Source: Williamsia sp. DF01-3 (GTDB taxonomy: Bacteria > Actinomycetota > Actinomycetes > Mycobacteriales > Mycobacteriaceae). Taken from it: DNA of 64,000 nucleotides. Shown here one piece after another: positions 33,474-60,519 of this stretch. The DNA lies in assembly GCF_023051145.1 (NCBI RefSeq), contig NZ_JALKFS010000005.1, positions 1,116,001 to 1,180,000 of the forward strand, read 5' to 3'. The notes under the pieces are model-generated. The model was not told the DNA's origin and did not search any database. It saw nothing but the letters and a program-made list of their open reading frames with translations. Within the stretch, counting starts at the first letter, position 1; each line of letters opens with the position of its first letter. The translations under genes and the position numbers were made by a program.

Positions 33474-33492
33474 GTTGGTTAGGCTAGCCTCA
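33474..33492. promoter_or_regulatory. IdeR/DtxR-like iron box 1, mbtA-mbtI divergent region
   Basis: GTTGGTTAGGCTAGCCTCA matches the mycobacterial IdeR consensus TTAGGTTAGSCTAACCTAA at about 14 of 19 positions and keeps the central TTAGGCTA. It is 30 bases upstream of the restored mbtA start, where repression by iron-bound IdeR would be expected. Confidence 0.75.
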
Positions 33493-33497
33493 AGCGC

Positions 33498-33516
33498 GAG
33501 AGTTAGCCCATCCTAA
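33498..33516. promoter_or_regulatory. IdeR/DtxR-like iron box 2, mbtA-mbtI divergent region
   Basis: GAGAGTTAGCCCATCCTAA matches the IdeR consensus at about 13 of 19 positions, mainly in the right half. It lies five bases from box 1, giving a tandem arrangement. It is 145 bases before mbtI, so tandem sites may serve both directions. Confidence 0.5.
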
Positions 33517-33660
33517 GTCCGCGGTTGCTGGGATCATGGGGGCACGGACGAACTTTCGATCGAGAAGACGCCTGACAGGTCCGTGGGCCACCGGGGTCCA
33601 CACGTGGTGCGGGTGAGTAGAGGATGCCATGAGCAGCAGAGCATTTGCCGGGGCGATCGC

Positions 33661-35034: not shown

Positions 35035-35042
35035 GCCGTGTG

Positions 35043-39917: not shown

Positions 39918-40544
39918 TCAGGGTCGGCTGAGCGAATGCAGCGCTATCCGGCGGCCGGGGCGCACGTCGAACTCGCCGAGATCCCGGTAGCCTTTCCTCG
40001 CCAGGGCCCTGCGCATGTGGGCGTTTCGGTGATCAGGGTCGACAAAAATTCTGTGACACAACGGGTCTGCGGTCCAGATCGCCTCCGCGAGTCGTTCCAT
40101 CCAGGTCGACATCACACCTCGGCCGAGGAGGTCGGTCCGTGCGGTCGCGATGTGAAATCCCATGTCGCGGGGCGCAGCTGGATACACCTTGGCGTTCTCG
40201 TCGCGGGCCGGGCGGTACAGCTCCACGTACGCCACCTCGGTCATCGCTTCACCGGAGACTCCGAATGCGGCGAGATCGGCACTCACGATGCACGGCCGCG
40301 AGTAGTCGCCGGCAAGGCGTGCTGCGGCGTCGTCTCGCCACCGTGCAGCCGACCATGGCTGTTCCCAGGTCTCCACCAGGTGCGGCAGCGACATCCACGC
40401 GGCGAGCATCTCCGGGTCGGAGCCGTCGGGGTCGACGAGGCGCAGCGCGAACGGCGGGTCGAAGTCGGGCACCACCGGCGGTGGGGCTGCCCGGACATCG
40501 TCACCGACGTCGGTGAGTTCACGTTTGAGGACATGCGAGGTCAC
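39918..40544 (-). CDS. mbtK: Siderophore lysine N-acyltransferase (GNAT)
   Basis: A 208-residue GNAT-fold acyltransferase of the MbtK/IucB family, which acylates the N6-amine or N6-hydroxylamine of lysine in hydroxamate siderophores. Typical segments are FALRLVDPDGSDPEMLAAWMSLPHLVETWEQPWS, VAYVELYRPARDENAKVYPAAPRDMGFHIATARTDLLGRGV and CHRIFVDPDHRNAHMRRALARKGYRDLGEFDV. M. tuberculosis MbtK is of nearly the same length. The start is GTG 40544, 36 bases from an IdeR-like box. The acyl chain length it prefers cannot be told from sequence. Confidence 0.87.
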   Translation of the reverse strand: MTSHVLKRELTDVGDDVRAAPPPVVPDFDPPFALRLVDPDGSDPEMLAAWMSLPHLVETWEQPWSAARWRDDAAARLAGDYSRPCIVSADLAAFGVSGEAMTEVAYVELYRPARDENAKVYPAAPRDMGFHIATARTDLLGRGVMSTWMERLAEAIWTADPLCHRIFVDPDHRNAHMRRALARKGYRDLGEFDVRPGRRIALHSLSRP

Positions 40545-40579: not shown

Positions 40580-40598
40580 GTAGGGTAGCCTAACCAAG
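40580..40598. promoter_or_regulatory. IdeR/DtxR-like iron box between mbtK and mbtT
   Basis: GTAGGGTAGCCTAACCAAG matches the IdeR consensus TTAGGTTAGSCTAACCTAA at about 15 of 19 positions. It lies 36 bases before mbtK and 113 bases before mbtT and may repress both. Confidence 0.8.
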
Positions 40599-40710: not shown

Positions 40711-41481
40711 ATGTCACGCGACCTCGGATGGATCCGGCAGTTCCATCAGCCCACGTCTCCGGCGAATCCGCCTTTGTTGATCTTTCCTCACGCGGGCAGC
40801 GGGGCATCGACCTACCGGGCGTTCTCCAAAGAGCTCAGTGCCTCGTTCGACGTGATCGTCTTCCAATATCCGGGACGGCAAGACCGTGCACGGGAGGCGC
40901 CGGCCGAGACATTGCCCGATCTTGCTGCGGGTGCCTTTGCGGAGTTCGTCGGATCGAGATGGAACCGGCAGGCAGCGATCACCGTGTTCGGCCACAGCAT
41001 GGGTGCTGTCACCGCGTTCGAGTTCGTCCGTCTGGCCGAAGCCCGCGGCATCGAGGTGCGGTTGCTCGGGGTGTCGGCGGCGGTGGCGCCATCACAGGTT
41101 GCGGACCTGCCTCCCCACCCGACGGGGGACGAGGAATTGCTCGAGCACCTCTCGGCGCTGAACGGCACCGGTGGTGACGTGCTGGCGAGTGCGGATGTGA
41201 TGCGGATGGCGTTGCCTGTCATGAAGATCGACTACCGCGCCTTCGATGCCTACTCCTGCGGCACCGAGGTGACGGTCGCGGCGCCGATCCGCGCCATGGG
41301 GGGCGCGGAGGACCCCTTCATCACCCCGGGCCAACTGCACGGCTGGGGCACACACACCACCGGTTCGGTGGATGTGACCGTCTTCGACGGCGGGCACTTC
41401 TATCTCGATGAGAACCGTGACGATGTCGCCGAGTTGCTCGTCGCCGAACCCGCGGCAGCACAACAATCGATCCAGCGGTAG
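40711..41481 (+). CDS. mbtT: Type II thioesterase of the siderophore pathway
   Basis: A 256-residue alpha/beta hydrolase that clears stalled or mis-primed acyl groups from carrier domains. Motifs are LLIFPHAGSGASTYRAF, the nucleophile elbow GHSMG with Ser96, the acid in GAEDPF and the catalytic histidine in GGHFYL. It belongs to the MbtT/NbtT/GrsT group. ATG 40711 is preceded by GAAGGAG. It is followed by mbtC after 12 bases and starts the mbtT-mbtC-mbtD unit, behind an IdeR-like box. Since MbtB lacks its own thioesterase here, MbtT is the only dedicated editing enzyme seen. Confidence 0.9.
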   Translation: MSRDLGWIRQFHQPTSPANPPLLIFPHAGSGASTYRAFSKELSASFDVIVFQYPGRQDRAREAPAETLPDLAAGAFAEFVGSRWNRQAAITVFGHSMGAVTAFEFVRLAEARGIEVRLLGVSAAVAPSQVADLPPHPTGDEELLEHLSALNGTGGDVLASADVMRMALPVMKIDYRAFDAYSCGTEVTVAAPIRAMGGAEDPFITPGQLHGWGTHTTGSVDVTVFDGGHFYLDENRDDVAELLVAEPAAAQQSIQR

Positions 41482-41493
41482 CGGAGCCGGCGA

Positions 41494-42828
41494 ATGTCAG
41501 CCAACACGAACGATCCGATCGTCATCTCCGGGATGGCCGTGGAAGCGCCGGGAGGAATCGAGGACACCGGAGCCTTCTGGGAGGCACTCGTTGCCGGGCG
41601 TGAGCTGATCTGTCCTTTTCCCAGAGACCGCGACTGGCCGATCGAGGAGCTGTTCGCTCTGCACCGGCTCGACGGCTGGAGTGCCGTCGCCGATGCCGGA
41701 GGATTCCTCGACGGCGCATCGCATTTCGACCCGGGCTTCTTCGGGATCAGTCCACGCGAAGCGATCGCGATGGACCCTCAGCAGCGAGTCGCCATGCGAG
41801 TTGCCTGGCGCGCACTCGAGGACGCCGGTATCAACCCCGGTTCTTTGGAGGATGCCGAGGTCGGTTGCTACATGGGCGTGTCGATCAGTGAGTACGGCCC
41901 ACGCGCGGCCGCTGTCAACGAGTTCAGCGGTCACCGCATCACCGGAACCGCGCTCGGCGCGGTTGCCGGCAGGATCTCACACAGCCTCGGACTCGTCGGT
42001 CCATCGATCAGTGTGGACACCGCCTGTGCTTCGTCGCTGACGGCACTGCACCTCGCTGCCGGAGCGGTCCGCGACGACGAATGTGATTGGGCGCTTGCCG
42101 GAGGCGTTTGCGTGATGGGTTCTCCTGCTGCGTTTTACGAGTTCTCCAAGAACAACGGGCTGGCATCGGACGGACACTGCCGGTCGTATGCGGCCGATGC
42201 CACCGGAACTCTGTGGGGTGAAGGGGCCGGTGTGGTTGTCGTCGAACGCGAATCCAGAGCGCGGGCTCTCGGACACCGGATCCACGGGCGCGTGCTGGCA
42301 ACACGTATCAACCACAACGGCAAGGGAATGCCGATCGTGGTGCCGAGTGCGGCGGCGCAGGTTCGCCTGATCGAGAAGACATTGGCGGCAGCGGAGGTGG
42401 AGGCCGGCGACATCGGCCTGATCGAGGGGCATGGCACCGGGACACCGCTCGGCGACCCGATGGAGCTGACCGCGTTGCAGAACACCTACGGGCAGGGCAG
42501 CGCCGGGACGGTGAAGCTGGGATCGGTGAAGTCGAACGCCGGCCACGCCCAGGCCGCTTCGGGGATGCTCGGCCTGATCAAGATGCTGCTCTGCGGGGGC
42601 AACGGGCACATAGCGCCGACACTGCACGCCGATCGGCCCACCACGAAGGTCGACTGGGAAAGTTCGGCGCTCCGATTGGCCGAGGGCCTCGAATACTGGG
42701 AGCCGAAAGATGGTGTGCGCTACGGCGCCGTGTCGTCGTTCGGGGTCTCGGGCACCAATGCGCACGCGATCGTCGCGATGCCGGACAGTGCCGCGGCCGT
42801 CGGGACCGCGGGAGCCCGCCATGCCTGA
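41494..42828 (+). CDS. mbtC: Ketosynthase (polyketide synthase subunit)
   Basis: A 444-residue discrete ketosynthase. The active-site cysteine is C178 in DTACASS, with histidines in EGHGTGTPLGDP and KSNAGHAQAASG. Start VISGMAVEAPGGI and end YGAVSSFGVSGTNAHAIV are typical. With MbtD it adds the two-carbon unit that becomes the beta-hydroxy-acid linker between the two lysines. The mbtD ATG (42821) lies within its last codons, an eight-base overlap indicating coupled translation. Confidence 0.9.
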   Translation: MSANTNDPIVISGMAVEAPGGIEDTGAFWEALVAGRELICPFPRDRDWPIEELFALHRLDGWSAVADAGGFLDGASHFDPGFFGISPREAIAMDPQQRVAMRVAWRALEDAGINPGSLEDAEVGCYMGVSISEYGPRAAAVNEFSGHRITGTALGAVAGRISHSLGLVGPSISVDTACASSLTALHLAAGAVRDDECDWALAGGVCVMGSPAAFYEFSKNNGLASDGHCRSYAADATGTLWGEGAGVVVVERESRARALGHRIHGRVLATRINHNGKGMPIVVPSAAAQVRLIEKTLAAAEVEAGDIGLIEGHGTGTPLGDPMELTALQNTYGQGSAGTVKLGSVKSNAGHAQAASGMLGLIKMLLCGGNGHIAPTLHADRPTTKVDWESSALRLAEGLEYWEPKDGVRYGAVSSFGVSGTNAHAIVAMPDSAAAVGTAGARHA

Positions 42829-45800
42829 TCATCGCCTGCCGGATGGCCGGACCGCGGTTCTCCTGTCTGCTGATTCGCCAGAGCTTCTGGTGGCCGAGGC
42901 AGGCGCGTTGTCGGCGTATGTGCGTGACAACCCGACGGTGACCCCGAGTGCTGTCGCGGCGACGCTGATGCGCACCCGCGTGGTCCGCAGGCATCGGGCA
43001 CTCGTGATGGCCTCCGACCGGGATCGCTTCGCTGCCGGCCTGCAGGCGCTCGCGGACGGTGGCGACCATCCGGACGTGGTGCGTGGCCGCGGCCCGGTGA
43101 CCAGGCGGACAACGGCTTTCGTCTTTCCGGGGCAGGGCAGTCAGTACCCCGGTATGGGGAAGATGTTCTACGACGCGTCACCGGTATTCCGGGACGAGCT
43201 CGACAGAATGAACGACATCTTCATCGAGCTGTACGGCATCTCCCCCAGGGACTATCTGCTCGATCAGCAGGAGCGTTCGGTCGACGCGGACGGGCGTGTG
43301 CACGAGGACATCCGCGTGGTACAGCCCGCACTTCTGATGCAGATGATCGCCCTGGCGCAGATGTGGCGTTCGTTCGGCGTGGAACCGGTGCTGACGGTGG
43401 GGCACAGCCAGGGTGAGATCGCCGCGGCGTACATCTCGGGAGCGATGTCGTTGACGGACGTCATCCACGTGGTGGCTACCCGGGCAAATCTGGTCGTCGA
43501 GTTCTCGCCGACCGGCTATTCGATGGCGGTGGTCGCCATCAACCGTGACGAGTGCGAGGCGTTGCTGGCCGAACATTCCGGGTGGGCCGAGCTGTCGGTG
43601 GTCAATTCCCCGCACATCCTGTGCATCTCGGGTGACCGTTCGACGGTGCACGACATGGTCGGAACACTGACCGCAGCAGGGAAGTTCGCGAAAGAAATCC
43701 GGGTCGACTACCCGGCGCACACCTCCATCGTCAGCAGATTCCGAGACGAACTCGGCGAGGCGCTGGCCGACAAGCTCGAGAACTCGAGATTCACGGAGAC
43801 GTCGACCCCATGCTTCGGTGGCACCCTGGGCAAGGCGATGTCGCCGTCACAACCGCTGTCGGACTACTGGTTCTGGAACCTTCGTAACCGTGTCCGGTTC
43901 GATCTCGCGGTCGGCGGCGCCGTGCGCAGCGGGGCGGACACCTTCATCGAGATCGCCGAGCATCCCACCCTGGCACTTGCCATCCAGGAGAACATCGCGA
44001 CCGCAGCGCCTGACTCGTCGATGCCCGTGATCGGGACGTCGCGGCGCAGCGCAGAAGACCTGCGCGAGTTCACACACAATCTCGCCACCGTCGCCGTCAA
44101 CGACTCCGGCTATCGGTGGGAGTCCCTCGCTGTCGCCGACGTGGAACCCGTACCCCCACTGCCCGATTTCCCGCACGTGCAGATGGCCCGGCGATCGCTG
44201 TGGGCCTCGCACCTGGCACCTGGGCAGGAACTGGAATCCAGAGTGCCCAAATCAGATCCGGCGCTGGTTCCCCGTCGCATCATCGAGACGTGGACGCGAC
44301 TGACGCGCCGGACACTGGTGCCACCGCGTTCCATTCTGCTGGTCGACCACACCGGGCGGTGTGAGCAATGGGCCGCCGACCTGTGCGCCGCAGCGCCGGC
44401 CCACGGCGCCACCGCGAGCATGTACCGACAACAGGGACCGTTGGGGTCGGCGGAGTTCGATTCGGTGGTGATCCTGTTGCCGACTGGTTCCGGCGACACC
44501 GTGTCCGACGCGATCGCGGACCTCTCCGATTTTTCGGGAACCGGGGCTGGCTGCCGGCAGCGGTCACCGACGCCGCCGAATGCTGGCTCGTGACTGCAGC
44601 CGGCGAACACGTGGTGCCAGACGATCCGGTCCCGCATCTGTTCCATGCCGCTGCCAACGCCGGATTCCGTTGTCTGGCAGCCGAGTACCCGCGCACGACG
44701 TTCCGGCACCTCGATCTTCCCGCCGCCGGTACACCGTCGGCTTCCGCCGTCATCGGCGCTCTGCACATCGCTGCCGAGCCGGAGCTGGCCCTGCGCGGCG
44801 CCAAGGTCTACGCAAAACGCCTTGCCTACGTCGACGCTGTAGACGGACGCCCCGCACCCGTGCTCGAGGACGCCGCACCACTCGGGTTCGACGATCCGGC
44901 CATCGGTTCGGGTCCCGACGATCACGTGGTGATCATCGGTGGAACCGGCAAGCTGGGCCTGGAGTTCTGTGAGTACTTCGCCACGCGGGGCGCGAACAGG
45001 ATCACACTTCTCAGCCGATCAGGTGAAACCGCTTCCATCGCAGGCCGATTGCGGCACATCCGGAGTCTGGGTGGCGCAAGGGTCGATGTCGTGGCGTGTG
45101 ACGTCGGTGACGAGGCATCGGTTTTGCAGTTCGTCTACGATCACGTGACCGATCCGGTGGACGTGGTGGTACACGCTGCGGTGAACTATGTGGACGCCGA
45201 ATCCGGCAGCATCACACCCGATCTCGTCGCGGCAGCAACACGGTCGAAGGTCGTCGGTCTCATGCATGTGCTGGCGGCGACACCGCTGGCGCCGCGATGT
45301 CGTGTCGTGCTGTGTTCATCGATCGCGGCAACCCTCGGAGGTCGCGGACAGATCCTGTACGCAGCCGGCAACCGGATGCTCGATGTGCTGGCGCGCACCC
45401 TGCGCGAACAGGGCATGCGGGCGGCATCGGTGCAGTGGGGGTTGTGGAACGTGCAGGGTCCGCTCGACACGGCCGGCGTCGATCGGGTCGAAGGGGCAGG
45501 TGTCATCCCCATGCGGCCCGCGGACGCGTTGTCTGTGGCCTTCACCGGCGCGACGACGGACACGATCGTCGCCGCGGCCGACTGGGCCGAGCTATACGAC
45601 ATCGTGTCCTTGTTCGGGCACGGACCCCTGATCGCCGGGCTGGTCCCCGAACGCCCGCCGGCTCAGTTGGCTTCCTCCGTGTTGCCGACGACGCCTTCGC
45701 CGGTGGCGGCCGGGTCGCCCACGGCGTCGGAACCGGCCACACCCGAGAGGCCCGCTGCGTCGGCGGACAGCGCGGTTTTTGCCGAATTGGTCGTCACCGA

Positions 45801-46017
45801 ACTCAACCGGGTGATGGGCATCGACGGGGGTGACATCGACCGGACGGTGCCGTTGGTCGCGCTCGGGCTCGATTCGCTGCAGGCGCTCGATTTCCGTCGC
45901 CGGGTGAAATCCGAACTCGATCGGGACCTCCCGGTGGAGGCGATCCTGGGCGGCGCATCGTTCGACGAGGTGGTCAGGTTGATGGATGTGGGGTCTGAGA
46001 CCGCCGTCGGCGGGTAA
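42821..46017 (+). CDS. mbtD: Acyltransferase-ketoreductase-acyl carrier polyketide synthase, frameshifted at 44530-44534
   Basis: A polyketide synthase subunit of about 1065 residues. The acyltransferase has FVFPGQGSQYPGMG and GHSQG; the usual YASH/HAFH specificity position reads YPAHT. The ketoreductase has GGTGKLGLEFCEYF and CSSIAATLGGRGQILYAAGN with catalytic Ser, Tyr and Asn. The carrier domain has Ser in GLDSLQ. It makes the reduced beta-hydroxyacyl unit with MbtC. The frame breaks at LSDF: one more T in the TTTTT run at 44530-44534 restores LSDFFGNRGWLPAAVTDAAE. As written, two ORFs (42821-44593 and a downstream one to 46017) would result. The start overlaps mbtC. Confidence 0.88.
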
Positions 46018-46042: not shown

Positions 46043-46061
46043 TAAGGACAGGCTTACCATT
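46043..46061. promoter_or_regulatory. IdeR/DtxR-like iron box upstream of the MTB12-like gene
   Basis: TAAGGACAGGCTTACCATT matches the IdeR consensus at about 12 of 19 positions, and GGTAAG-N6-CTTACC (46041-46058) forms a perfect inverted repeat around it. It lies 67 bases before the start at 46128 and would give mbtE and mbtF their own iron-controlled promoter. Confidence 0.55.
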
Positions 46062-46901: not shown

Positions 46902-49900
46902 ATGCCAGAAAACCTGATAGCCCGCCGCAAAGAACTGCTTCGCCGAAAGCTCGTCGAGAGCGGCCTCGCATCCGACGTCTCCGCTCCGGTTCGCACTCGA
47001 TCGGCCGGTGAGCGCTCACCGCTGCCGGCGGGGCAGCAGCGGCTGTGGTTCCTGCAGACCCGTGACCCTGATGACACCACCCTCAACGTCTGTGTGGCAT
47101 ACCGGTTGTCGGGCCGCTTGGATGTCGATCGGTTGCGGGCAGCGCTATCCGACGTGGTCGGACGCCACGAGATCCTGCGCACCTCCTACGGCGTGGGCGA
47201 CGATGGGGTCCCGTACGAGTCTGCTGCCGAGCACGTCGAGGTGCCCTGGAGTGAACACGACCTGACCGATCTCGTGGAGCAGAGTCGCTCTCGCCGTCTC
47301 GAAGTGCTCGCACGACGTGAGTTCGGGCGGCCGTTCGACCTCGCCCGGGACGTGCTGATGCGGGCGACACTGGTTCGAACCGCCCGCGACGAGTGGGTGT
47401 TCATCTTTGTCGTCCACCACATCTGCTGGGACGACGACTCGTGGGCGGTCTTCTTCGACGACCTGAATGCGGCCTATCACGGGCGATCCGCACACCGGGA
47501 GCCGATCCAGTTCCTCGACGTGGCAACCGATCCGGTGGCCCCCGAAGTCGACGACCCAGCGATCGCATACTGGCGAGACTTGCTGAGCCCGGCTCCGGAA
47601 TGGCTCGAACTGCCGGCGGAGACACCCGGTGTCGCGTCCAAGGATGCAGGCCGCGGTTCCAGGGCGATGTCCTCCGATGTGATCGAGGCGGTGAACGAGC
47701 TCGCTCGTGCGGCCTCGACAACGCCGTTCACAGTGCTGCTGGCAGCCTTCGGAGCGTTGATCCACCGGTACACCGGTGCGACGGACTTCTTGGTGGCCGT
47801 GCCCATCACCGACCGGCGCAAGCCTGGGGCCGACAGGGCGATCGGGTACTTCGGCAACACGGTGCTGGTGCGGACGACCATCGACCCCCGGGCCGCCTTC
47901 GCAGACCTCATCGCGGCCACTCGCGACACCGCTCTCGGTGCGTTCGGTCACCAGCATCTCGGTATCGACCGGGTGGTGCGCGAGCTGAACCCGGATCGGT
48001 CTGGTGGCGATGGTCTCGAACAAATTGTCCGACTGAGCTTTTCGACACGCAAGAGCGCGGTCGGGTTCGCGCTCGACGGTGTGACGGCCGAACAGCTCGA
48101 CCTGGCCGCCTCGGTGACCCAGATGCCTCTCGGGCTGACGGTGGTGCGCGATGGCGATGACGCATCGGTGGAAGCCGAGTACTTCGCGGATGTGCTCGAC
48201 CACGCGGTCGTGGACGACATGCTGGCCGCTTACGTTCGGTTGCTCCACGAGGCTGTCGCGTCGCCCAGCACACGAATCGTCGATCTCGACATCCTGGGGG
48301 AGGGGCGAGCGGAGATCATCGAGCGTTCGCACGGTGATCAGGTCTCCGCGACACCAGCCACGCTGCCGGAGATGTTCGAGAGTCGGGTCAGGGCACATCC
48401 GGACCAGCCCGCGATCATCGACGACAGCCACACCCTCACCTACGCCGAGCTCAACGCCCGGTCCAACCGTCTGGCCCGTTGGTTCATCTCACGCGACATC
48501 GGACCCGAAGACCTTGTGGCACTGAGTCTTGCTGCGTCGGTCGAGTTCGTCGTGGCGGCGGTCGCCGTGCTCAAGGCGGGCGGCGCGTACCTGCCGATCG
48601 ATCCGTCCTACCCACAGGACCGGATCGACTTCCTCGTCGAGGACGCCAGGCCGCGAATCATGCTGTCCCAGGCCGATTTGGCCGCTGCTGAGCAGGCAGC
48701 CGAGGCCCTGCCCGTCGTCGATCCGGTGGACGCGGACCGGATCCGCCCTCTGCTCCCGGCTGGTCTGGCGTACGTCATCTACACCTCCGGCTCCACCGGC
48801 CGGCCCAAAGGTGTCCCGGTACCCCACGCGGCGATCGCGGACCATCTCGCCGGCTTCCATGCCCAATTCGGGATGACCGCCGAGGACCGGCTGGTTCAGA
48901 CCTCGTCGGTCAGCTTCGATGCCTCGCTGTTCGAGGTGTTCTGCACGCTCACTCTCGGGGCCACGCTGGTGATCCCCAAAGCCGACGGCTTGCAGGATAT
49001 CCCGTACATGGCAGACCTGTTGGTGCGCCAGGGCGTCACCGTCATGCACATGGTTCCCTCCATGCTGGGGATGTTCCTGTTGCTGCCGGGGGTCAACGAG
49101 TGGACCACCCTGCGCCAGATACCCGTGGGTGGAGAAGCGCTGCCCGGTGAGATCGCAGACAAGTTCGGCACGGTGTTCGACGCCCAGTTGCGCAACAACT
49201 ACGGCCCCACCGAAGCGGTTGTCGCGGCCACCCACTACCCGGTCGACGGACCACAGGGTGTCCGGATCGTGCCGATCGGTGTGCCGAACCGCAATGTGAC
49301 GGTGTACATCCTCGACGCCGCACTGCAACTCGTGCCGACCGGAGTGGTCGGCGAGATCTACATCGGCGGAGAGCAACTCGCACGTGGATACCTCGGCCGT
49401 CCAGCGCTGACCGCCGAGAGGTTCGTCGCCGATCCGATGTCGCCGGGTGGCCGGCTGTACCGGACGGGCGACCTCGCGCGCTGGAACGTCGACGGTGACA
49501 TCGAGTTCGTCGGCCGGATCGATGAGCAGGTGAAGATACGCGGCTTCCGGATCGAACTCGGCGAGGTCGAGTCCGCGCTCGCCGGCCACCCTGCGGTCGC
49601 GCGTGCCCTGGTCATCGTCACCGACGATTCACGTGTGGGCGCATCGCTGGCGGCTTACCTTGTCGCCGAGCGTGATCAAACCATCGAGATCGGAGCTGTC
49701 CGGGACCACGCTGCGTCGGTGTTGCCGGAATACATGGTGCCGAGCGGCTTTGCCGTGATCGACGAGATACCCCTCACCGCACACGGGAAACTCGATCGCA
49801 GAGCGCTTCCGGAACCGGTGAGCAGCCGGCCCGCGGAGTCACGTGCACCCACCACCCCGACCGAGATCCGTGTTGCCGCACTGTTCGCGTCCCTGTTCGG

Positions 49901-52841
49901 CCGCGATGACATCGGCGCAGATGACTCCTTCTTCGAACTCGGCGGGCACTCGTTGCTGGCGGCGCGCTTGGTCACGCAGATCCGGACCGAGTTCGGAGTG
50001 GACATCGACGTCCGGGCACCGTTCGACACACCCACCGTTGCCGGCTTGGCGACATGGCTGGTGGCCCAGGTGCGCAGTGAGTTCGGCATCGACCTCGACG
50101 CGCATGACGATGACGAAGGCGGAGACTGGGATCTCAGCAGCAGTTCGATCCCGGAGGCTGCGGCGTCATCGTCTCTGACCGGCGCACCGCGTCGGCCCGC
50201 GATCTCTGCTCGCACCGAGGCGCCAGAACACGTGCCCCTGTCGTACTCACAGCTCGCGATGTGGTTCGCCCGTAGCTTCGAAGGGCCCAGTGCGGTCGGG
50301 AACATCCCGATGGCGGTGCGGATCGATGGTCCGCTTGATGTGCCTGCCCTGACCGACGCACTGGGCGACGTGATCGCCCGCCACCCGGCTCTGCGGACAA
50401 CGTTTGTCGAGCGAGAAGGTGTGCCGTATCAGGTTGTCGGACCCGTCGAGCCCGCGGTGTTGCCACTCACGGTGGTGAACGGCACGTCGATCGCCGAGAA
50501 GGAAGCGCAGCTGAGTGCAGAACTCGACCGGGTGGCCGGCCATACTTTCGCGATCGAATCCGAACGGCTGATCCGTACAGAGCTGTTCTCACTCGGTGAG
50601 AATTCGCATGTGCTGTCGATCTTGGTGCATCACATGGTGATCGACCACTGGTCGTTCAACGTGCTGCTGGCCGACGTGGTCACCGCCTACCGCCACCGCC
50701 TCGGTCATCGGTCGGCGCCGCCCTGGCTGCCTCTGCCGATCCAGTACAGCGATTACGCCTTGTGGCAACGCGACCTCTTCGAACCAGGCGCGGTGGCGCA
50801 CGCCGTGGGTGATGCGCAGCTGGAGTACTGGCGGTTGACGTTGGCGGGCATTCCCGACCACATCACCGTCGCAGCGGACCGTCCTCGGCCCGCGGTGCTC
50901 GGAAAGACCGGCGAAATCGTGACTTTCGCGGTGCCGGCAGATCTGCGCACCAAGTTGCGTGCGGTGGCCGATCGCGCCGGCGTCAGCGAGTTCATGTTGC
51001 TGCACTCTGCGGTGGCGACCCTGCTGCACAAACTGGGCGGTGGCGACGACATCACCATCGGTACGCCGGTCGCGGGCCGGACCGACGATGCCACGGTCGG
51101 CATCGTGGGACTGTTCGCGAACATGGTGGTGTTACGCAACGACTTCAGCGGTAGCCCGACAGTGCACGACGTCCTCATCCGCGGGAGAGATGCAGCGCTG
51201 GGAGCGTACGCCAACCAGGACGTGCCCATCGAGCGACTCGTCGAAGCGCTCAACCCGCGCCGCACCCGGTCGCGTAATCCGCTGTTCCAAGTGATGATGC
51301 ACTTTCGGGATGAGCACGGCCGGGATGAGTACGGCCGTGATGAGAGCGGCCGTGATGAGAGCGGTGGCTCCGGCGCATCGGCACTGACCGACGGAACCAC
51401 GATCTCGCTGCTGCCGGTGGACTTCGAGACATCGTTCCTCGACCTGAACATCATCTTCGCCTCGCAAGCCGATGGCGGTCTGGCCGCACGCCTGGTTGCG
51501 TCGACGGATCTCTACGATCGCGACACCGCCGAAGAGATGGCCCGCCGAATGATCATCATGCTCGAGCACTTTGCCGACCACGTGGAGACCCCGGTGGAGA
51601 AGGCGGACGTGCTTCTTGCCGACGAACGCCACCGCCTTCTCGACCAGTGGTGCGATGGAGGACCGCTTGATGTCGAGGCCTTCCGAGCCAGGATGAATGC
51701 CCTTCCTGCCGGCAGCGACACAATTGCGATCCGGCGGGGCGACGATGTCCTCGACTACCGTTCCCTCGCCGACTGTCTGGCACGCAACGACAACGCGAGT
51801 GGCCCGCTGTCCGATGTCGTCACGGTTGTGCGCGGTGCGCTGCACGGACATCCGTGTCACCTTCCGGCTCCGAGCACCGATGCGATTCGGTTGATCGCTG
51901 CCCGTTCCGGCGACCCGGTGATGGTCTCGGAACTCCTCGCCGGATTGTCGGACGGGGCGACCGTGGTGCTGGCCACCGACTCCGAACGAACCGATCCGGC
52001 CGCCCTGGCCGCTGTGATCGCGGGGCAGTCGGCGCAGAGAGTGGTCGCCTCACCGGACATGCTCGGCATGCTCCCGCACTCGGGGGTGTCGATGATGCCG
52101 TCGGTGCGGACCTGGGTGGCTGCCTCGGTCAGCACCCAACCATCTCTGGGCGAGACGCTCGGGTCCCTGTCTGCGGGTTCGGTTGCTGAGTACCGTTACA
52201 CGGCTGAGGATCTCGACGTAATCTTGGCGACGGGCGAGCTGTTCGGTTCCCACTCCGGACGTCCGGTCCCAGGATCGAAAGTACTGGTGCTGGACGCACA
52301 ACTCGACCCGGTTCCGCCGGGGGTGGTGGGCGACGTCCACGTCCAGGTGGCGGGGTCGGGACCCGTGCGCACCGGTGACAGGGCGAGGTGGGACCGCACC
52401 GGTTCGCTTGTCTTCCAGATGCAGTCCGAGGCCACGGTGGCCGGTGGGGTCGTGGGCGTCGCCGGCGGTGGCGAAAAACCCCAGACCGACACCGAGCGCG
52501 CGATCTGCGATGTTCTCGCGGAGTTGCTGGACATCGACGGCGTGGGTCGCGATGACAACTTCTTTGCACTCGGTGGCGACAGCGTCATCTCCATCCAGCT
52601 CGCGGGAAAGCTTGCAGCCAAGAACATTCCGCTCACGCCACAGATGATCTTCGATCACCACACGATCGCCGAGGTGGCCGCCGCAGTCGACGAGGCCCGT
52701 GCCGCAGCTCACGGATCGGATGAAGACCCCGAAGTCGGCCGGCCCGATGCCCCCGCATCGACCCATGCGCCGATGTCTGTCTCCGGGTTGAGTGGCGACG
52801 CTCTTGCAGCCCTGACTGCCTCGTGGAAACCGGGTTCATGA
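46902..52841 (+). CDS. mbtE: Siderophore NRPS: C - A - PCP - C - degenerate A - PCP
   Basis: A 1979-residue synthetase. The first condensation domain has HHICWDDDS near residue 172. The adenylation domain (about 480-980) has [45 protein letters not shown] and [13 protein letters not shown]. The carrier domain has Ser1017 in ELGGHSLL. A second condensation domain has [11 protein letters not shown] near residue 1242. Then comes a shortened, damaged adenylation domain (about 1570-1860) that keeps [19 protein letters not shown] and [12 protein letters not shown] but lacks the ATP-loop, KIRG and terminal lysine motifs, followed by a carrier with Ser1894. It activates the first lysine. M. tuberculosis MbtE is shorter. 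Four 15-bp repeats lie in the second C domain. It overlaps mbtF by four bases. Confidence 0.88.
51306..51365 (+). repeat. Four tandem 15-bp repeats within mbtE (RDExG)x4
   Basis: Four adjacent 15-base units at 51306-51320, 51321-51335, 51336-51350 and 51351-51365 encode [20 protein letters not shown]. They follow [10 protein letters not shown] in the second condensation domain. The repeat is in frame, so copy-number change would not disrupt translation. Confidence 0.85.
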
Positions 52842-55800
52842 CCGAGGACGTGGTCAACCGCTCCGCACCCGCCATCGAGGATGTTCTGGCACTGAGTCCA
52901 CTGCAGGAGGGCCTCTTCTCACTCGCCGAGATCGCGGGCGACAACCTCGATCTGTACACGATGCAATTCATCGTCGAGATCAGCGGCGATGTGAACACCG
53001 AGTTGTTGCGCCGAAGCGTCGAGGTGATCCTCGAGCGCCACCCGAACCTGCGGGTTTCCTTCTGGGACCGCGACACCCCCAAGCCCGTACAGATCGTTCC
53101 CACGTGGGTCGAACTGCCGTGGGCCGAGCGTTCCGCGACTCCGGAAGAGTTCGATTTCATCGCCGGATCCGAGCGGCGACGCAAGTTCGATCTGTCCCAG
53201 GGCCCCGCGCTGCGTGTGGTGCTGGTGAACTTGCCCGACGACCGCCGGCGACTGCTGATCACCGCGCACCACATCTTGATGGACGGATGGGCCGTCGCGA
53301 TCTTCTTCCAGGAGATGTTGGCTGTGTACGAGGCGGGCGGCGATGGCAGGTCATTGCCTCTGCCGCGGCCATACCGCGACTACATCGGCTGGCTGGCAGC
53401 GCAGGATGATGACTCCGCGCTGGCGAGTTGGGTCGACCACCTCGCGCCGTTGCGTGGTCCGGTGATGCTCGCCGAAGGTCGAAGGGCCCAGCCGGATTCG
53501 GTCCCCCGGCGCACCAGAGTTCAGCTGAACCGGTCCGACACCACCAGGCTGACATCCTGGGCCCGGACCCAGGGTCTGACGGTGAACACCGTTGTCCAAT
53601 ACGCCTGGGCAGTGGTGTTGGGACGGCTGACCGATCGGCGTGACGTGGTGTTCGGCACCACCATCTCGGGTCGGCCGGACTCCCTGCCAGGCGTCGAGGG
53701 CATGATCGGTCTGTTCATCAACACTGTTCCCGCTGTGGTCGTCTTCGAACCCGGCACATCGGTGGCGGAAAGTCTTGCGGCACTGCAGCGAGACTCTGCA
53801 CGGATGCGAGATCTCGGCTACCTCGGTCTGTCTGCGGTGCAGCGTGCCGCAGGGCACGGCAGTCTCTTCGACACCCTGTTCGTCTTTGAGAATGCCCCGA
53901 TCGGTGCGGTGACCGACCCTCTCAGCACCAGCGATGGGACGCGGTTTCTGCCCGTGGCGATGGAGAGCCTCGCGCACTACCCACTCACCATCGCGGCATA
54001 CCTGCAGAACGGTTCCTTGGTGGTGATGGCCGAGGTCATCGACGAGGCCCTTCCGCACCTGCCCGCCGCAGACATCGCCGAGCGGATCCTGCACGTGCTC
54101 AGGCAGATACCCGATTCTGGATCCGCCGGTCCCGACACTCTCGACGTGCTGCTGCCCGCCGAGCACACTGCCGTGGAACGCGGTGTCGCCGTCGATGACG
54201 TGCCCACCGGCACCATCGCTGCCGCGTTCCTCCGCCAGGCCGCGGTGACCCCGGACGCGCCCGCACTCACCACCACGACCACCCAGTTCACCTATGCCGA
54301 ATTGCGCGACCGCACACTGCGTGTGGCCCAGGAACTCCGCCACCGCGGAGCCGGTCCGGAAGACGTGGTGGCGATCGCGCTGGAGCGGTCGGCCGATTCG
54401 GTGATCTCGATCCTCGGTGTGCTGGCCGCCGGTGCGGCATACGTCCCCGTGGATGTCGCGCTGCCGCCGGCGCGGATCGGATCGATTCTGCGACAGTCGA
54501 ACTCCGCCTTCATGATCACCAAGTCAGATGTGCTGCCCGCGGAGCTCCGGGGCGGTGCCACCACCGTTCTGCGGCTCGACGACCCGGCGGTGATCGATTC
54601 GATCGCACGCCGAGAACCCGTGCCGCCATCGGTGCCGGAGGAGTCCCGCCTCAGCGCCTATCTCATCTTCACCTCCGGTTCGACCGGTGAACCCAAAGGT
54701 GTCATCGGTACCAATGGCGCCGTGCTGAGCTACTTCGCCGACCACCGGGACCGGGTGTACGTGCCCGCGAAGAATCGCCTCGGCCGCCCGTTGCGCATCG
54801 CTCACGCGTGGTCGCTCAGTTTCGACGCCTCGTGGCAACCACTGGTCGGTCTGCTCGACGGGCACAGCGTCCATCTGTTCGACTCCGAGGACATGCGTGA
54901 TGCCGACGCCCTGGTCGAGGGGATCATCGCGCACGGAGTCGACATGATCGACACGTCCCCGTCGATGTTCGGGCAACTCTCGGGTGCCGGCCTGATCCCG
55001 GCGAACAGCACACGCACACCGCTGTCGGTGCTGGCGCTCGGCGGCGAGGCCATCAGCGCGGCACTGTGGAAACAGTTGCAAGAGTTCGACGATCTGGACG
55101 TCTACAACTGCTACGGGCCCACCGAGACCACTGTCGAAGCCGTGGTCGCAACGGTCAAGGATTCACCCACACCCACGGTCGGTCAGGCCGTGGACCGCAT
55201 GACGGCGCACGTTCTGGATTCCGCTCTGCGGCCCGTTCCGCGTGGGGTAGCGGGGGAGCTGTATCTCGCCGGCGAGCAGGTCACCCGCGGTTACGCAGCA
55301 CAGCCCGGGATGACCGCCGGCCGGTTTGTCGCAGACCCCACCGGTGCCGGCGACAGGATGTACCGAACCGGGGACCTCGTCCGGCATCTGCCCGACGGCA
55401 AGCTCACCTTTCTCGGCCGGGCTGACAGTCAGGTGAAGATCCGGGGATATCGCATCGAGATCGGCGAGATCGAGAGTGCCTTGCGCGGCGTGCCGGGTGT
55501 GACAACGGCTGCGGTGGTGGTGCTTCGACGTGCGGCCGGGGCCACGCTGGTCGGCTTTGTTGTCGGGACGTCCGTTTCGGATCAACAGATTCGCGCGTTT
55601 CTCGCCGAACGCCTGCCCACCCATATGCTTCCCGCCCGAGTGCTGACGCTCGAGTCCTTGCCGATGACATCAAACGGCAAGCTGGACAACGACATCCTGA
55701 CGGATCTGGCGCGAGACGCACTGTCGGCCAGGACGGGAGCCGATGCGCTGCCGTCGACGGACACCGAGCGAGCCCTGTGCACGGCGTTCGCCGAATTGAT

Positions 55801-57397
55801 CGGCGGGCCCCCACCAGGCGTCGACGAGGACTTCTTCGATCTCGGGTTGGACAGCATCGTCGCCATGTCGCTGGTGAACGCGCTCAGACGGTTCGGCGTG
55901 CACGTCAGTCCACGAGCGGTTCTCGAGAACCCCTCGGTGCGCTCTCTTGCCGCGGCCATCGATGCCGGTGAGGTGGCCGTGGTCGACGACGACGGTGAGC
56001 ACGACGGTCCCGGCGAGGTGGTCGCACTGCCGATCGTCCGATGGATGTACGAGTACGGCCGTTTCCGCCGGTTCACCCAGACGACTTTGATCGCGTTGCC
56101 CGAGGGTGTGACGGACGGCGACGTGCAGTCGGTGCTGCAAGCGCTGCTCGACCGCCACGACATGCTGCGGTCGAAGCTGTACTCCGATCCGTCCGGCTAC
56201 CGGCTCGTGACGCAAGAGATCGGGTCGGTGAGCGGGGCGGACGTCATCGAAACGGTTGTGGTCACCGACGACCTGGGCCGTGCAGTCGAGGGCGCCGCCC
56301 GGATCGCAGCGGGACGGATCGACCCCGAAGCAGGCGCCATGATGGCCGCTGTTCGCCTACAGAACCCGGCCGGTGGCGACGTGTTGCTCCTCGCCATCCA
56401 CCATCTGGCGACAGATGCGGTGTCCTGGCAGATACTCTTCGGCGATCTCGTCGAGTGCGGACGCATGCTGAGCGAAGGATCGGTGCCCGTTCTGGGACGT
56501 GTGTCCACCTCCTATCGACGCTGGACGCACGTGCTCACCGAGCGGAGCGGATCCGAAGACGTCCTTGCGCAGCAGGATTATTGGATCGGTCAACTCGCCG
56601 GGCCCGACCCCGAGATCGGGGAGCGGCCGCCCGATCCGACCGTCGACGACTGGTCGTCGCTGCAGACCACCGACGCACACACCACCACCGAGATCACCGG
56701 CCGCGTGCTGGCGAAACTGGCGGGCCAGGACTCCGGGATGCGCGAATTCCTGCTGACTGCCCTCACGATTGCCGTGACGACATGGCGAACCGTCAACGGG
56801 CAGGACAACACCGGCGGCGCTCTGATCGCCCTCGAGGGACACGGCCGCGAAGACGTTGTGGTGGCAGGCGAAGTGGACACCTCAGAGACCGTCGGGTGGT
56901 TCACCAGTGTCTTCCCGGTCCGGCTCGGTGCGGGCAAGCCGGTCGACCTCGACGCGGTCACACGCGCACCGGAAGTCGCAGTTGCCCTGTTGGATTCGGT
57001 CACCTCGCATGTCGGCGCCATCCCGCGGCGCGGGATCGACTACGGCTTGCTGCGCCATGTCGAGCGGGTTTCGGGACTCGTGGATCTAGCCGACCCGCAG
57101 ATCGAGTTCAACTACCTCGGCCGGTTCGATCTGAGTTCGGCCGGAGCGACCGACAACCCCCGACCGTGGTCGGCCATCACCGACCTCGAACTCAACGGCC
57201 ATCTGCCCACCGCTCCAGAACCCGAGCTGCCGCTCCGGTACGCACTGGACGTGGTCGCAGTGGTCCGGGGCACGGCCGAGGGCCCGCAGTTGGTCACCAG
57301 CCTTCGCTGGAGTGAGTCGCTGATGAACGCCAGGCAAGCCGACGATCTCGCCGGTATCTGGCAGGAGTCCGTGGCCGCGCTCGCCCGCGCCCTCTGA
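52838..57397 (+). CDS. mbtF: Siderophore NRPS: C - A - PCP - terminal E-like domain
   Basis: A 1519-residue synthetase that adds the last lysine. The condensation domain has HHILMDGW near residue 144. The adenylation domain has [11 protein letters not shown] near 611, [32 protein letters not shown] and [13 protein letters not shown]. The carrier has Ser in GLDSIVAMS near 1005. The final 470 residues resemble an epimerisation domain: [20 protein letters not shown] near 1187, [11 protein letters not shown] and [11 protein letters not shown]. There is no thioesterase, so release, probably by lactam formation of hydroxylysine, may depend on this domain or be spontaneous. The FDASWQ pocket start is common in hydroxyornithine/hydroxylysine A domains. 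The start overlaps mbtE. Confidence 0.9.
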
Positions 57398-57439
57398 CGT
57401 CGGTTCTAGTCCGCGACTGGGCTGTTCGAGTCACCGACG
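57398..57439. terminator. Weak hairpin between mbtF and the SagB-type gene
   Basis: CGTCGGT (57398-57404) pairs with ACCGACG (57433-57439), with a smaller inner AGTC-CGC-GACT stem. It is placed between convergent genes and overlaps the SagB stop codon. Low confidence. Confidence 0.35.
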
Positions 57440-58795
57440 CGGGGAGCCGAGTACCAAACTTCCCATGGCACATTCGGTCATCTCATCGACCCCGGCCAGT
57501 TCGGCGAATGCGGCGGTGTCGCAATAGCCCTGCGCCACCGACCCCAGGCCCATGTCGGTGGCCACCAGCGACATCGTCTGGGTCAGCACCCCGACATGCT
57601 TGAGCATGACTGCGTAAGGAATCTGCTCGTAGGTCCACATCACCCGTCCTACGCGTGCAGCGAAGACGAACAGGATCTGCGGCAGCTGTCCGTCGGCGAG
57701 AGTCAGCGACGACGGGGTGAGCAGCCGGCTGATCGCCGGATGGTCGATGGCCGTCACCGGACGCAACGCGTGATCGAATGCGTCGTAGTGGTACATCCCT
57801 GGAGCGAGTCCCTGCGCCTGTCGCACAACGGGATACACCTCCATCTCGTACAGACCCCCGCCCGACGGGAATGGCTTTGACGGGAACTCCTCGTCCCCGA
57901 TTGCCCGCAGCGTCCGGTTCCGTGCCGTGCGAAAGAGGAACTCTCCGAGTTGGTCGATGGTGGGCGGGGACTGGGCCGCGAAGTCTCGGCACGAGGTGCG
58001 GTCCTCGATCGCGGCGGTGAGTGAGTCCCCGGCGACGCGCAGGCTGTCCAGGTCGGGGGAAGGCAGGGCGATCGGGTCTGTTGCATAGGCGGTCTTGCGC
58101 GCGGGCAGTGGCGGGAACGTGCCGGCAGCCCATTTGGTCGGTCCGAAGCGTCCCCAGTCGCGGGTGCGCACACCGAACGTGCTCCGGCGATGGAACCACA
58201 ATTCGTGTGGACCCCAACTGCGGGTGGCGAAGTCGTCGTGCTCGGACTGCGGGTCGGTGACAAAGCCCGCCCAGCCCAGGTCGTCGGCCAACCTGGACAG
58301 GGCATCGGGAGAGATCTCCCCGGTGGCGGACATCCCTGCGATGGCCGCGAGCACCCGCCCGTCGTGTATCTCGATGTCACACCACGACATCGGATGTTCT
58401 GCCACACAACGATCGTCGTTCCGATGGATCACGGCGAACTTCGAGAGGGTGATCGGTAACCGGCCGGCCTCGGGAATCGTTCGCGGCGGCGGCGGCGCAA
58501 AAGGCAGCAGCGAGTACAGGTCCACTCCGCCCGACCGGACGGTGACCCTCAGCAGTCCGGCCGCGACGAGTCGATCGAGCAGAGGGCTGACACGGGTGTC
58601 GGCCGGGTCGAGTTGGGTGGGTTCTCGGCCCAGCGCTTTGAGCAGTCGGATCTGTTCGGGTGACAGCCCGGTGAGGCGCTGTTTGTCGGGCAACAACACC
58701 GCCACGCCGCCGGGTGCGGTCATGCAGGACGCCCCCGGCCGGAAGGCGTAGACGAACTGCAGGTCACCCACCGACGACGGGCTCGCCCCGGTCAC
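57431..58795 (-). CDS. SagB/McbC/ThcOx-type FMN-dependent oxidase, candidate azoline dehydrogenase
   Basis: A 454-residue protein. Residues 1-100 resemble a winged-helix module (TGLSPEQIRLLKALG...DRLVAAGLL). Residues 262-454 form a nitroreductase-fold domain of the SagB/McbC type, with RTSCRDF (267-272), PFPSGGGLYEMEVYPVV (309-324) and YAVMLKHVGVLTQTMSLVATDMGLG (394-418). Relatives oxidise thiazolines and oxazolines to thiazoles and oxazoles, both in peptide toxins and as oxidase domains in NRPS lines such as bleomycin and epothilone. In this siderophore setting it may oxidise the MbtB oxazoline, as in nocobactin-like oxazoles; that is inference. The GTG start at 58795 overlaps the lipoprotein stop, so the three genes form one operon. 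Confidence 0.8.
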   Translation of the reverse strand: MTGASPSSVGDLQFVYAFRPGASCMTAPGGVAVLLPDKQRLTGLSPEQIRLLKALGREPTQLDPADTRVSPLLDRLVAAGLLRVTVRSGGVDLYSLLPFAPPPPRTIPEAGRLPITLSKFAVIHRNDDRCVAEHPMSWCDIEIHDGRVLAAIAGMSATGEISPDALSRLADDLGWAGFVTDPQSEHDDFATRSWGPHELWFHRRSTFGVRTRDWGRFGPTKWAAGTFPPLPARKTAYATDPIALPSPDLDSLRVAGDSLTAAIEDRTSCRDFAAQSPPTIDQLGEFLFRTARNRTLRAIGDEEFPSKPFPSGGGLYEMEVYPVVRQAQGLAPGMYHYDAFDHALRPVTAIDHPAISRLLTPSSLTLADGQLPQILFVFAARVGRVMWTYEQIPYAVMLKHVGVLTQTMSLVATDMGLGSVAQGYCDTAAFAELAGVDEMTECAMGSLVLGSPRR

Positions 58796-59775
58796 TTGGC
58801 AGCGGCGTCGAATGCGGGCGTGATCTTGTCGAGGACGTACGGAAGTGACAGCGGCGACGGTTGATTGATGCCGCTGATCTCGGCGACACTGAGCCACGAC
58901 ACGGCTTTGTCCTTGACCGAGGTCAGGTTCTTGTATCCCGGCAGGCTTTCGAGGGCGCCCCGCATCTGCGGTGAATTGGCCGTCACCACCAGCAGATCGG
59001 AGTTCATCATCGGCACGTTCTCGGTGGAGATCGGGAAACGTGGTTCACCGTTCTTCTTGAACGTGTCGAGCAGGCTGGGGGCCATCGCCATACCGAGGGA
59101 CGAGAACAGGGTTGCCGCACCGTCATTGGGGTCACCGAAGACCTGGATCTGGTCATTGGTGAACATGTACGCCAACGAGAACGTCTTGCCGTTCAGCCCG
59201 GGATGGTCCTGCTTGATCTGGTCGACCTTGGCGTGGACGCCATCGATGATCTCCTTGGCCTTGTCGGGCTGGCGCAGCACGGTGCCCATGAAGGTCACCA
59301 TGTCCTCCCACGGATCGACCTGCTGGCCGGTGATCGACGGGATGGTGGGGGCGAGCTTGTTCAGCTTCTCGTAGGTCTCCTGCTGTTCGCCGAAGTTCGT
59401 CGACAGGATGAGCTGTGGATCGACGGACGCGACCTGACTGGCGACGTCGCGAGCAGGGTCCACCGACTGCGACGAGGCAAGGCGTTCGCCCACCCACGGC
59501 GTGGGTTCCTTGGTGAGCAATTCGACGTTGTCGAGGTAGGCCACCGGCGTCACACCGAACGCGAGGGCAACATCGGTCCACTGGGTACCGAGGGTGACGA
59601 TCCGTTCCGGCGTGCCGTCGATGGTGACCTGACCCATCGAGGTGTTCACCTGGATGGGACCGCCTGCGGAATCGTCTTTCTCGTCGGGGGAACTGCAGGC
59701 GGAGATCAGCAGGATCAAGACGGCGAACACTGCGGTGAGGGCCGGGGCCCCGAGACGGGTGAAGCGGGTGGACAT
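58792..59775 (-). CDS. Siderophore-binding lipoprotein (FecB/FepB-type)
   Basis: A 327-residue ABC substrate-binding protein. The signal peptide MSTRFTRLGAPALTAVFAVLILLISAC ends in a lipobox with Cys27. The mature part has the cobalamin/Fe3+-siderophore fold: GTPERIVTLGTQWTDVALAFGVTPVAYLD, DPQLILSTNFGEQQETYEKLNKLAPTI and LSVAEISGINQPSPLSLPYVLDKI. I chose ATG 59775, with GAAAGAG five bases upstream; ATG 59799 overlaps the SIP stop and would add eight residues (MTVSERVQ) to the signal peptide. It sits between SIP and the SagB-type gene behind an IdeR-like box. No membrane permease or ATPase for it is in the window. Confidence 0.88.
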   Translation of the reverse strand: MSTRFTRLGAPALTAVFAVLILLISACSSPDEKDDSAGGPIQVNTSMGQVTIDGTPERIVTLGTQWTDVALAFGVTPVAYLDNVELLTKEPTPWVGERLASSQSVDPARDVASQVASVDPQLILSTNFGEQQETYEKLNKLAPTIPSITGQQVDPWEDMVTFMGTVLRQPDKAKEIIDGVHAKVDQIKQDHPGLNGKTFSLAYMFTNDQIQVFGDPNDGAATLFSSLGMAMAPSLLDTFKKNGEPRFPISTENVPMMNSDLLVVTANSPQMRGALESLPGYKNLTSVKDKAVSWLSVAEISGINQPSPLSLPYVLDKITPAFDAAAK

Positions 59776-59795
59776 CTGCACTCTTTCGCTGACGG

Positions 59796-60496
59796 TCATT
59801 TCCAGTAGGCCTGAGACTTGATCGCGGACTTGGGGATCTTGTGTATCGCCTTGAGCGACTTGACGATGTCGCGCGTGGTGTGGAACTCGCAGGCAACCCA
59901 TGCGTATGCTTCTGGGCCGCAACTCAACTCGCTCGCGGCCCTCCGCAGAGCCTGCCCCTTGTCTCCCCGGTCGAGCCACTGCACAGTTGTGCGGGGAGTG
60001 GAGCGCAGCGGTAGATCGCGGTCCGAGTCGTGCTGGCACTCGAGCCAGACGCGCACAGGCACGTCGCCGACGACGTCGAGCAGCGAGTTGATCGCAGGCA
60101 GGGACGCGGGGTCGCCGAACAGGAGGTACTCGGCTGGGGGCGGTGTCGGGATCTCGAACTTCGAACCCATCACCGACGCGTCGATCTCGTCGCCGGCCAC
60201 CGCGGAAGTCGCCCAGTCCGATGCCGGGCCGGGGTGGAGCGCGAACTCGATGTCGAAGCGGTCGGCCGCCGGGTCGGGATCGACCAGGGTGTATCCCCGT
60301 TGCTGCACCTTGTCACCGTTCGGGATCCACAGTCGGATCCACTGGGTCGGGTGACTCGGGTGGTGTTCCAGCAACCCCCGGCTGCGAATCCGAGACGGAT
60401 GTAGCGGTCGGTGATCTGCTGTTTGCCCGTCACCGTGAGTCGGTAGTCGTTCGCCCCGAACGCCTTGAGGGCCAAACCGGACAGTCCTCTGGTCAT
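59796..60496 (-). CDS. Siderophore-interacting protein (SIP, ferric-siderophore reductase), frameshifted at 60375-60379
   Basis: Joined, the two frames give a 233-residue FAD-dependent SIP of the ViuB group, which reduces ferric siderophores in the cytoplasm to release iron. Part one reads MTRGLSGLALKAFGANDYRLTVTG...YIRLGFAAGG. Part two, in another frame, reads LLEHHPSHPTQWIRLWIPNGDKVQQRGYTLVDPDPAADRFDIEFALHPGPASDWA and ends AIHKIPKSAIKSQAYWK. One G restored to the five-base run complementary to 60375-60379 rejoins them. ATG 60496 is five bases from an IdeR-like palindrome. The stop overlaps the longer version of the lipoprotein start. Confidence 0.88.
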
Positions 60497-60500
60497 GGGG

Positions 60501-60519
60501 TGAGCTTAGCCTAAGCTCC
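60501..60519. promoter_or_regulatory. IdeR/DtxR-like iron box between SIP and a small membrane protein
   Basis: TGAGCTTAGCCTAAGCTCC contains a perfect 17-bp palindrome (60502-60518) and matches the IdeR consensus at about 14 of 19 positions, including TTAGCCTAA. It ends five bases before the SIP start, so it overlaps the likely transcription start there, and is 33 bases before the ATG of the 54-residue gene on the other strand. Confidence 0.78.

Follow-up and report, generated by a model that had tools for sequence, protein, structure and literature searches.

A predicted oxazoline oxidase of the SagB/ThcOx type at the mycobactin-type siderophore locus of Williamsia sp. DF01-3

The closest described counterparts of the enzyme discussed here, a putative azoline oxidase encoded at 57431..58795 (minus strand) in a 64,000-nucleotide stretch of the Williamsia sp. 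DF01-3 genome (contig NZ_JALKFS010000005.1, positions 1,116,001 to 1,180,000; hereafter, the window), are the SagB proteins of the Nocardia nocobactin clusters. Nocardia clusters with a co-located sagB gene (subfamilies I, III and VII) are reported to yield almost exclusively oxazoles and those without sagB to yield oxazoline products, and the conclusion drawn is that the dehydrogenase takes part in ring oxidation (PMC7413640). These SagB proteins and the Williamsia oxidase belong to the same clade, show 51-55% identity and are encoded beside mbt/nbt genes, in Nocardia often next to the same lipoprotein; the Williamsia operon differs in that it additionally encodes a siderophore-interacting protein (SIP) and ends tail-to-tail with mbtF. 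The Williamsia oxidase looks like a further member of this known group, for which the idea of ring oxidation is already in print in the case of Nocardia (PMC7413640).

Other related systems are more distant. BmdC, which belongs to the bacillamide nonribosomal peptide synthetase (NRPS) system (PMC8795117), is likewise a stand-alone flavin mononucleotide (FMN) oxidase with an NRPS partner that contains a heterocyclisation (Cy) domain, and its tyrosine and FMN-binding arginine positions are matched in Williamsia; however, the sequence similarity is remote (54 bits with a profile), and BmdC has a Lys-Tyr pair where the Williamsia oxidase has Thr-Tyr. The best relative in the PDB is the cyanobactin oxidase CyaGox/ThcOx (5lq4/8pz5), with a match of 176.8 bits that includes the ThcOx domain and spans residues 125-486 of a longer open reading frame (P0001). 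CyaGox serves ribosomal peptides and retains the Lys-Tyr pair (WKYH), whereas the partner of the Williamsia oxidase is an NRPS cluster. McbC, the microcin B17 enzyme, carries a Lys/Tyr pair and also serves a ribosomal peptide; it has the catalytic domain family in common with the Williamsia oxidase (32.3 bits). No report of an oxidase of a mycobactin-type cluster in Williamsia was found among the matches listed in the open-licence PMC literature. PMC5719810, which matched for SagB and siderophores, is concerned with Brevibacterium ribosomal peptides, and in the available part of PMC9113425 Williamsia appears only as the partner in a coculture.

The Williamsia protein is most probably, as judged from its sequence and genomic context, a stand-alone FMN-dependent azoline oxidase that acts in trans on a mycobactin-type assembly line and converts its oxazoline to an oxazole. 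This function had been proposed in an earlier sequence-only reading of the locus and is supported by the family assignment, the FMN and tyrosine positions, the linkage to a Cy-containing MbtB in several genera and the chemistry reported for Nocardia (PMC7413640). The assignment of the 454-residue protein to the SagB/McbC type, made in the same reading, holds: the protein scores 137.8 bits against TIGR03605 (SagB; cut-off, 78.4), contains the PF00881 (Nitroreductase) and PF22767 (ThcOx) domains, and has BmdC and McbC, in addition to CyaGox, among its PDB relatives. The closest named relatives, with 94 and 97% identity, are those of Williamsia muralis strains. A scan of named genomes yielded 106 oxidase relatives, the best 80 of which were kept, with flanks of up to 10 kb on each side. 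A quick maximum-likelihood tree was built from 53 rows (the window, 10 other rows and 42 taken from the 80 named loci), with support computed only as the Shimodaira-Hasegawa-like approximate likelihood ratio (SH-aLRT). In it, the window oxidase groups with the Nocardia orthologues in a clade of 46 rows (SH-aLRT 99) that also includes Gordonia, Skermania, Antrihabitans and mycobacterial rows; the YcaO-associated homologue from the same genome and six other distant rows fall outside. The tree contains several open forks and a number of long branches; the distant homologue L120 lies within the clade on a long, unsure branch. Given the score above the cut-off and this placement, clustering with unrelated nitroreductases, the outcome that would have spoken against the proposal, was rejected.

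The residues of the putative active site were mapped onto BmdC, for which the FMN contacts and Tyr260 as the proposed base have been described (PMC8795117), through a profile of 13 relatives, and were counted in 45 aligned rows (the window, 42 of the 80 named loci, L020 and L021). Arg266, Arg270, Tyr389 and Gly423, which align with BmdC Arg145, Arg149, Tyr260 and Gly294, respectively, are invariant (45/45), Ser268, the counterpart of Ser147, is present in 43/45 rows, and Glu390, adjacent to Tyr389, is invariant as well.

The MbtB-type NRPS encoded at 35040..38579 (plus strand) consists, according to Pfam and its relatives, of a carrier, a condensation-type, an adenylation and a second carrier domain. 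The condensation-type domain contains the Cy motif DMIAGDAMS, read in the translation, in agreement with the previous claim that MbtB carries out heterocyclisation, and the ring that it forms is predicted to be an oxazoline. The DxxxxDxxS motif is present in each of the 40 MbtB relatives examined in the flanks, a set limited to those with >48% identity and >700 bits. The nine positions of the adenylation pocket, located by GrsA numbering, are DLYAFGLIH in the window, DAYNTGLIH in 21/40 relatives and of the DLYN type in 15/40. The MbtB of Nocardia gamkensis NBRC 108242 belongs to the DAYNTGLIH group; the oxidase orthologue of this strain (L039) shows 55% identity to that of the window and belongs to the same 46-row clade. 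Because methyloxazole products are reported for N. gamkensis NBRC 108242 (PMC7413640), the substrate of its MbtB would be threonine. In Williamsia, MbtB would condense salicylate with serine or threonine and cyclise the product to a 2-hydroxyphenyl-oxazoline, from which the oxidase would take two ring hydrogens, with Tyr389 as the general base and FMN as the hydride acceptor, to be reoxidised by O2. The oxidation would probably occur with the chain still on the MbtB carrier, comparably to the action of BmdC during synthesis by BmdB. The expected product is an oxazole siderophore, 2 Da lighter than the oxazoline, similar to nocobactin NA or formobactin.

The association of the oxidase with mycobactin-type genes is nearly universal among the named relatives. 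Matches to mbt NRPS or polyketide synthase (PKS) proteins (>200 bits) are encoded in the flanks of 77 of the 80 loci (the exceptions are L034, L035 and L038), and in 71 of these 77 the nearest such gene is convergent with the oxidase gene; a count of 72 loci with MbtB was set aside, being inflated by cross-matches between NRPS genes. In a survey of 401 genomes of the family, that of DF01-3 included (E 1e-60 for the oxidase and 1e-90 for the MbtB-type carrier-Cy region), the oxidase was detected in 48 genomes and the MbtB-type region in 171. The latter is present in 47 of the 48 oxidase-bearing genomes compared with 124 of the 353 others (Fisher p 2e-18, uncorrected for kinship), or in 45 of 46 when the partial, distant oxidase matches in G187 and G217 are left aside. 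Among the 45 genomes for which positions of both genes were listed, the two are located on the same contig in 40 (at distances of up to 44 kb in 34, 80 kb in one and 208-225 kb in five) and on different contigs in 5. Conversely, when the 46 genomes with the closest MbtB are considered, 39 encode the oxidase, and the sole one of eight same-genus relatives that lacks the oxidase (G004) lacks MbtB and MbtG as well.

This linkage also bears on two other conceivable functions. Given the SagB family name and the presence of one YcaO match in the genome, the oxidase might be the dehydrogenase of a ribosomal peptide pathway, of the type that makes thiazole/oxazole-modified microcins, located here by chance. 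However, besides the mbt linkage in 77/80 loci, this only YcaO gene lies 3.9 Mb away on the same 5.25-Mb contig (about 1.4 Mb in the other direction if the contig is circular) and has a nitroreductase-family gene of its own next to it; a ribosomal peptide dehydrogenase was rejected on these YcaO and linkage data, and we regard this function as very improbable. The distant locus (L118, at about 5.05 Mb), in which YcaO, nitroreductase-family and peptidase-S15-type genes are adjacent, is possibly a separate ribosomal peptide cluster. Formation of an oxazolone or some other desaturated amino-acid product comes to mind because OxzB, TyzC and TrzS are nitroreductase-superfamily oxidases of mycolic-acid bacteria (PMC12856293). 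According to the same source, OxzB and TrzS carry a ThiF-like cyclase as a fused domain, whereas the Pfam scan detected no such domain in the oxidase; for this reason an oxazolone synthase was rejected, and the mbt linkage likewise makes this activity hardly credible.

Several observations weigh against azoline oxidation by the Williamsia enzyme. With respect to the active site, the sequence-only reading had called for a Lys/Tyr pair and for FMN binding, and this expectation was borne out in part, namely for the tyrosine and the arginine, serine and glycine positions of the FMN site. The lysine is replaced by Thr388 and is found in none of the 80 named relatives, and the FMN contact Asn236 of BmdC is unmatched, the respective position being occupied by Ser, Ala or Thr in 44/45 rows and by Lys in one. 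With respect to the chemistry, the support from Nocardia is a correlation that involves mostly structures predicted by mass spectrometry, without a knock-out; N. araoensis NBRC 100135, which belongs to the sagB-bearing subfamily III, yielded a compound of the mycobactin type whose ring was an oxazoline derived from serine, as determined by nuclear magnetic resonance; and neither this strain nor N. takedensis NBRC 100417 gave a nocobactin (PMC7413640). Siderophore chemistry of Williamsia was not found among the matches listed in the open-licence PMC literature. With respect to gene distribution, the oxidase is missing from 7 of the 46 genomes whose MbtB is closest, which fits but does not prove that these organisms make oxazolines, and in one genome (G016, locus L117) the oxidase is present whereas MbtB and MbtG were not found at the thresholds used. 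Within 5 kb of this orphan oxidase gene, there are a SIP gene and a gene for a Mutator-type transposase.

The lost lysine could mean that the fold is retained in a poor or inactive azoline oxidase with a structural or other flavin-related role at MbtB. The residue that precedes the tyrosine in the 80 named relatives is Thr in 73 (including L097, which has a variant motif), Ala in 3, Ser in 2, Gly in 1 and Met in 1. These counts, like those in the 45 aligned rows, lean toward Thr and Ala, since either residue was required at this position by one of the two seed patterns; nevertheless, the 12 relatives found without any pattern show Thr in 10 cases, Ala in 1 and Asn in 1. Lysine is present at this position in CyaGox, BmdC and the distant homologues L022, L023 and L120 (the latter with 38% identity); L119 (40% identity) has Ser. 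The loss of activity appears improbable considering that Tyr389, Glu390 and the FMN arginines are invariant, that the orthologue from the methyloxazole maker N. gamkensis (PMC7413640) shares the TYE motif, and that the tyrosine is the residue proposed as the base in BmdC (PMC8795117).

The oxidase gene is the last of three co-directional genes at 57431-60496 (minus strand), in the order SIP, lipoprotein, oxidase. The GTG start of the oxidase reading frame at 58795 overlaps the stop of the lipoprotein gene by four bases (58792-58795). The lipoprotein (58792..59799, minus strand), which matches Peripla_BP_2 (PF01497) and contains a lipobox, LISAC, read in the translation, appears to be of the ferric-siderophore-binding type; its gene has two candidate starts, 59775 and 59799, the second of which gives an ATGA overlap with the SIP stop (59796-59799). 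The SIP gene (59796..60496, minus strand) is split into an N-terminal piece (60383-60496) and a C-terminal piece (59796-60380; PF04954 and PF08021) in different frames. In contrast, SIP is a single open frame of 236 codons in all seven named Williamsia-type loci (L027-L033); the split in the window may be either an error of sequencing or a genuine interruption. One of the seven, L029, comes from a record labelled Kitasatospora arboriphila NRRL B-24581. Its oxidase shows 91% identity to that of the window, and the surrounding DNA is Williamsia-like, with 95-96% identity to the window for the mbt genes and 98-99% for SIP and the lipoprotein; the label of this record is probably wrong. The oxidase stop is separated by 33 bases from the stop of the convergent mbtF (57397). 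Thus, the previously described gene order, the four-base overlaps (the second one with the start at 59799) and the tail-to-tail arrangement with mbtF are all seen in the reading frames and Pfam matches; an intact SIP gene is not.

The operon structure raises the alternative, already mentioned in the sequence-only reading, that the oxidase acts together with SIP on the incoming ferric siderophore, for instance, in iron release. The joining of the oxidase, lipoprotein and SIP genes by four-base overlaps in Williamsia, as well as the presence of the lipoprotein gene directly upstream of the oxidase in 36 of the 80 loci (in L098, L102 and L106, the upstream DNA is too short to judge), would be compatible with such a role. 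The wider comparison argues against it: a same-strand SIP gene adjoins the oxidase only in the seven Williamsia-type loci of the 80 (in L048 and L082, a SIP match is found about 5 kb away on the opposite strand), and no lipoprotein match was found in any of the 34 mycobacterial flanks, two of which (L098 and L102) contain almost no upstream DNA, whereas mbt NRPS genes neighbour the oxidase in all 34. In addition, the SIP frame is split in the window, and related oxidases act on azolines rather than on ferric chelates. Because transport genes are not always found beside the oxidase and mbt genes nearly always are, a function in import, although suggested by the association with uptake genes, appears less likely and is, in our assessment, distinctly improbable compared with oxazoline oxidation.

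The oxidase operon is preceded by a predicted iron box. Searching the 64-kb window for at least 14 matches out of 19 to the consensus TWAGGTWAGSCTWACCTWA, as quoted in PMC9505556, identified six places. Two overlapping 14/19 matches at 60496..60519 lie upstream of the operon, the lower of them touching the SIP start codon; two (15/19 and 14/19) are located at 33474..33516, between mbtA and mbtI, starting at 33474 and 33498; one (15/19) is at 40580..40598, between the N-acyltransferase and thioesterase genes; and one (15/19) is at 46043..46061, before the gene at 46128 that precedes mbtE. In 20 first-order Markov sequences of matching composition, there were 0.2 matches per window when both strands were counted, or about 0.1 places, so that the IdeR-like box originally noted at the head of the operon is borne out. 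Given that iron boxes precede the SIP operon and also lie in the promoter regions of the mbt genes, the oxidase operon shares a predicted operator with the biosynthetic genes. On the other side of the iron box, and divergent from the SIP operon, the window encodes a 54-residue protein with a membrane segment (60553-60717, plus strand), which is 100% identical in L027-L029 and 56-59% identical in L030-L033. Its membrane segment is similar (61% over 31 residues) to the beginning of the protein encoded at 46128-46856, whose gene also comes after an iron box.

The rest of the locus is a set of mycobactin-type genes, the Mbt names of which are those that we take to apply from Pfam domains and gene order. 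An MbtA-type aryl-AMP ligase (31823..33331, minus strand; PF00501) is followed by an MbtI-type chorismate-binding enzyme, by position a salicylate synthase (33583..35034, plus strand; PF00425), and, downstream of MbtB, by an MbtG-type lysine N-monooxygenase (38576..39889, plus strand; PF13434) and an MbtK/NbtH-type N-acyltransferase (39918..40544, minus strand; PF13523). Genes for a thioesterase, a ketosynthase, an acyltransferase and a ketoreductase-carrier protein occupy 40711..46017 (plus strand). The two large NRPS genes are of the MbtE type (46902..52841, plus strand), with two condensation domains, two AMP-binding stretches, one of which looks partial, and two carriers, and of the MbtF type (52823..57397, plus strand), with two condensation-type domains, one adenylation domain and one carrier; the latter gene is convergent with that of the oxidase.

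Finally, the oxidase is not confined to Nocardia-like organisms. The mycobacterial carriers include M. gastri, M. szulgai, M. gordonae, M. celatum, M. simiae and Mycobacteroides chelonae, and the neighbour of the oxidase gene in the 34 mycobacterial loci is MbtB in 26, convergent and at less than 100 bases, and MbtF in 8. In the tree, the mycobacterial rows are contained in a 30-row group (SH-aLRT 98) that otherwise consists of rows from Nocardia, Aldersonia and G187. The mycobactins described in the literature are usually oxazolines. Among the matches listed in the open-licence PMC literature, no report of an oxidase beside mbt genes in mycobacteria was found, and the available part of PMC9505556 gives no indication as to whether the M. 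abscessus mycobactin contains an oxazole. Tentatively, and with a probability that we put somewhat short of even, these oxidases may form a distinct class of azoline oxidases without the lysine (mostly W-T-Y-E) that serves mycobactin-type assembly lines across Mycobacteriales and was passed from a Nocardia-like lineage to a subset of mycobacteria, where oxazole mycobactins would be expected.

Altogether, the proposed function would tie one gene to one ring of the siderophore, so that the genome could reveal the oxidation state of mycobactin-type siderophores. Two features seem worth following, namely the absence of the lysine and the presence of the oxidase in mycobacteria. If the mycobacterial orthologues act in the same manner, the picture of mycobactins as oxazolines would fail for part of the mycobacteria.

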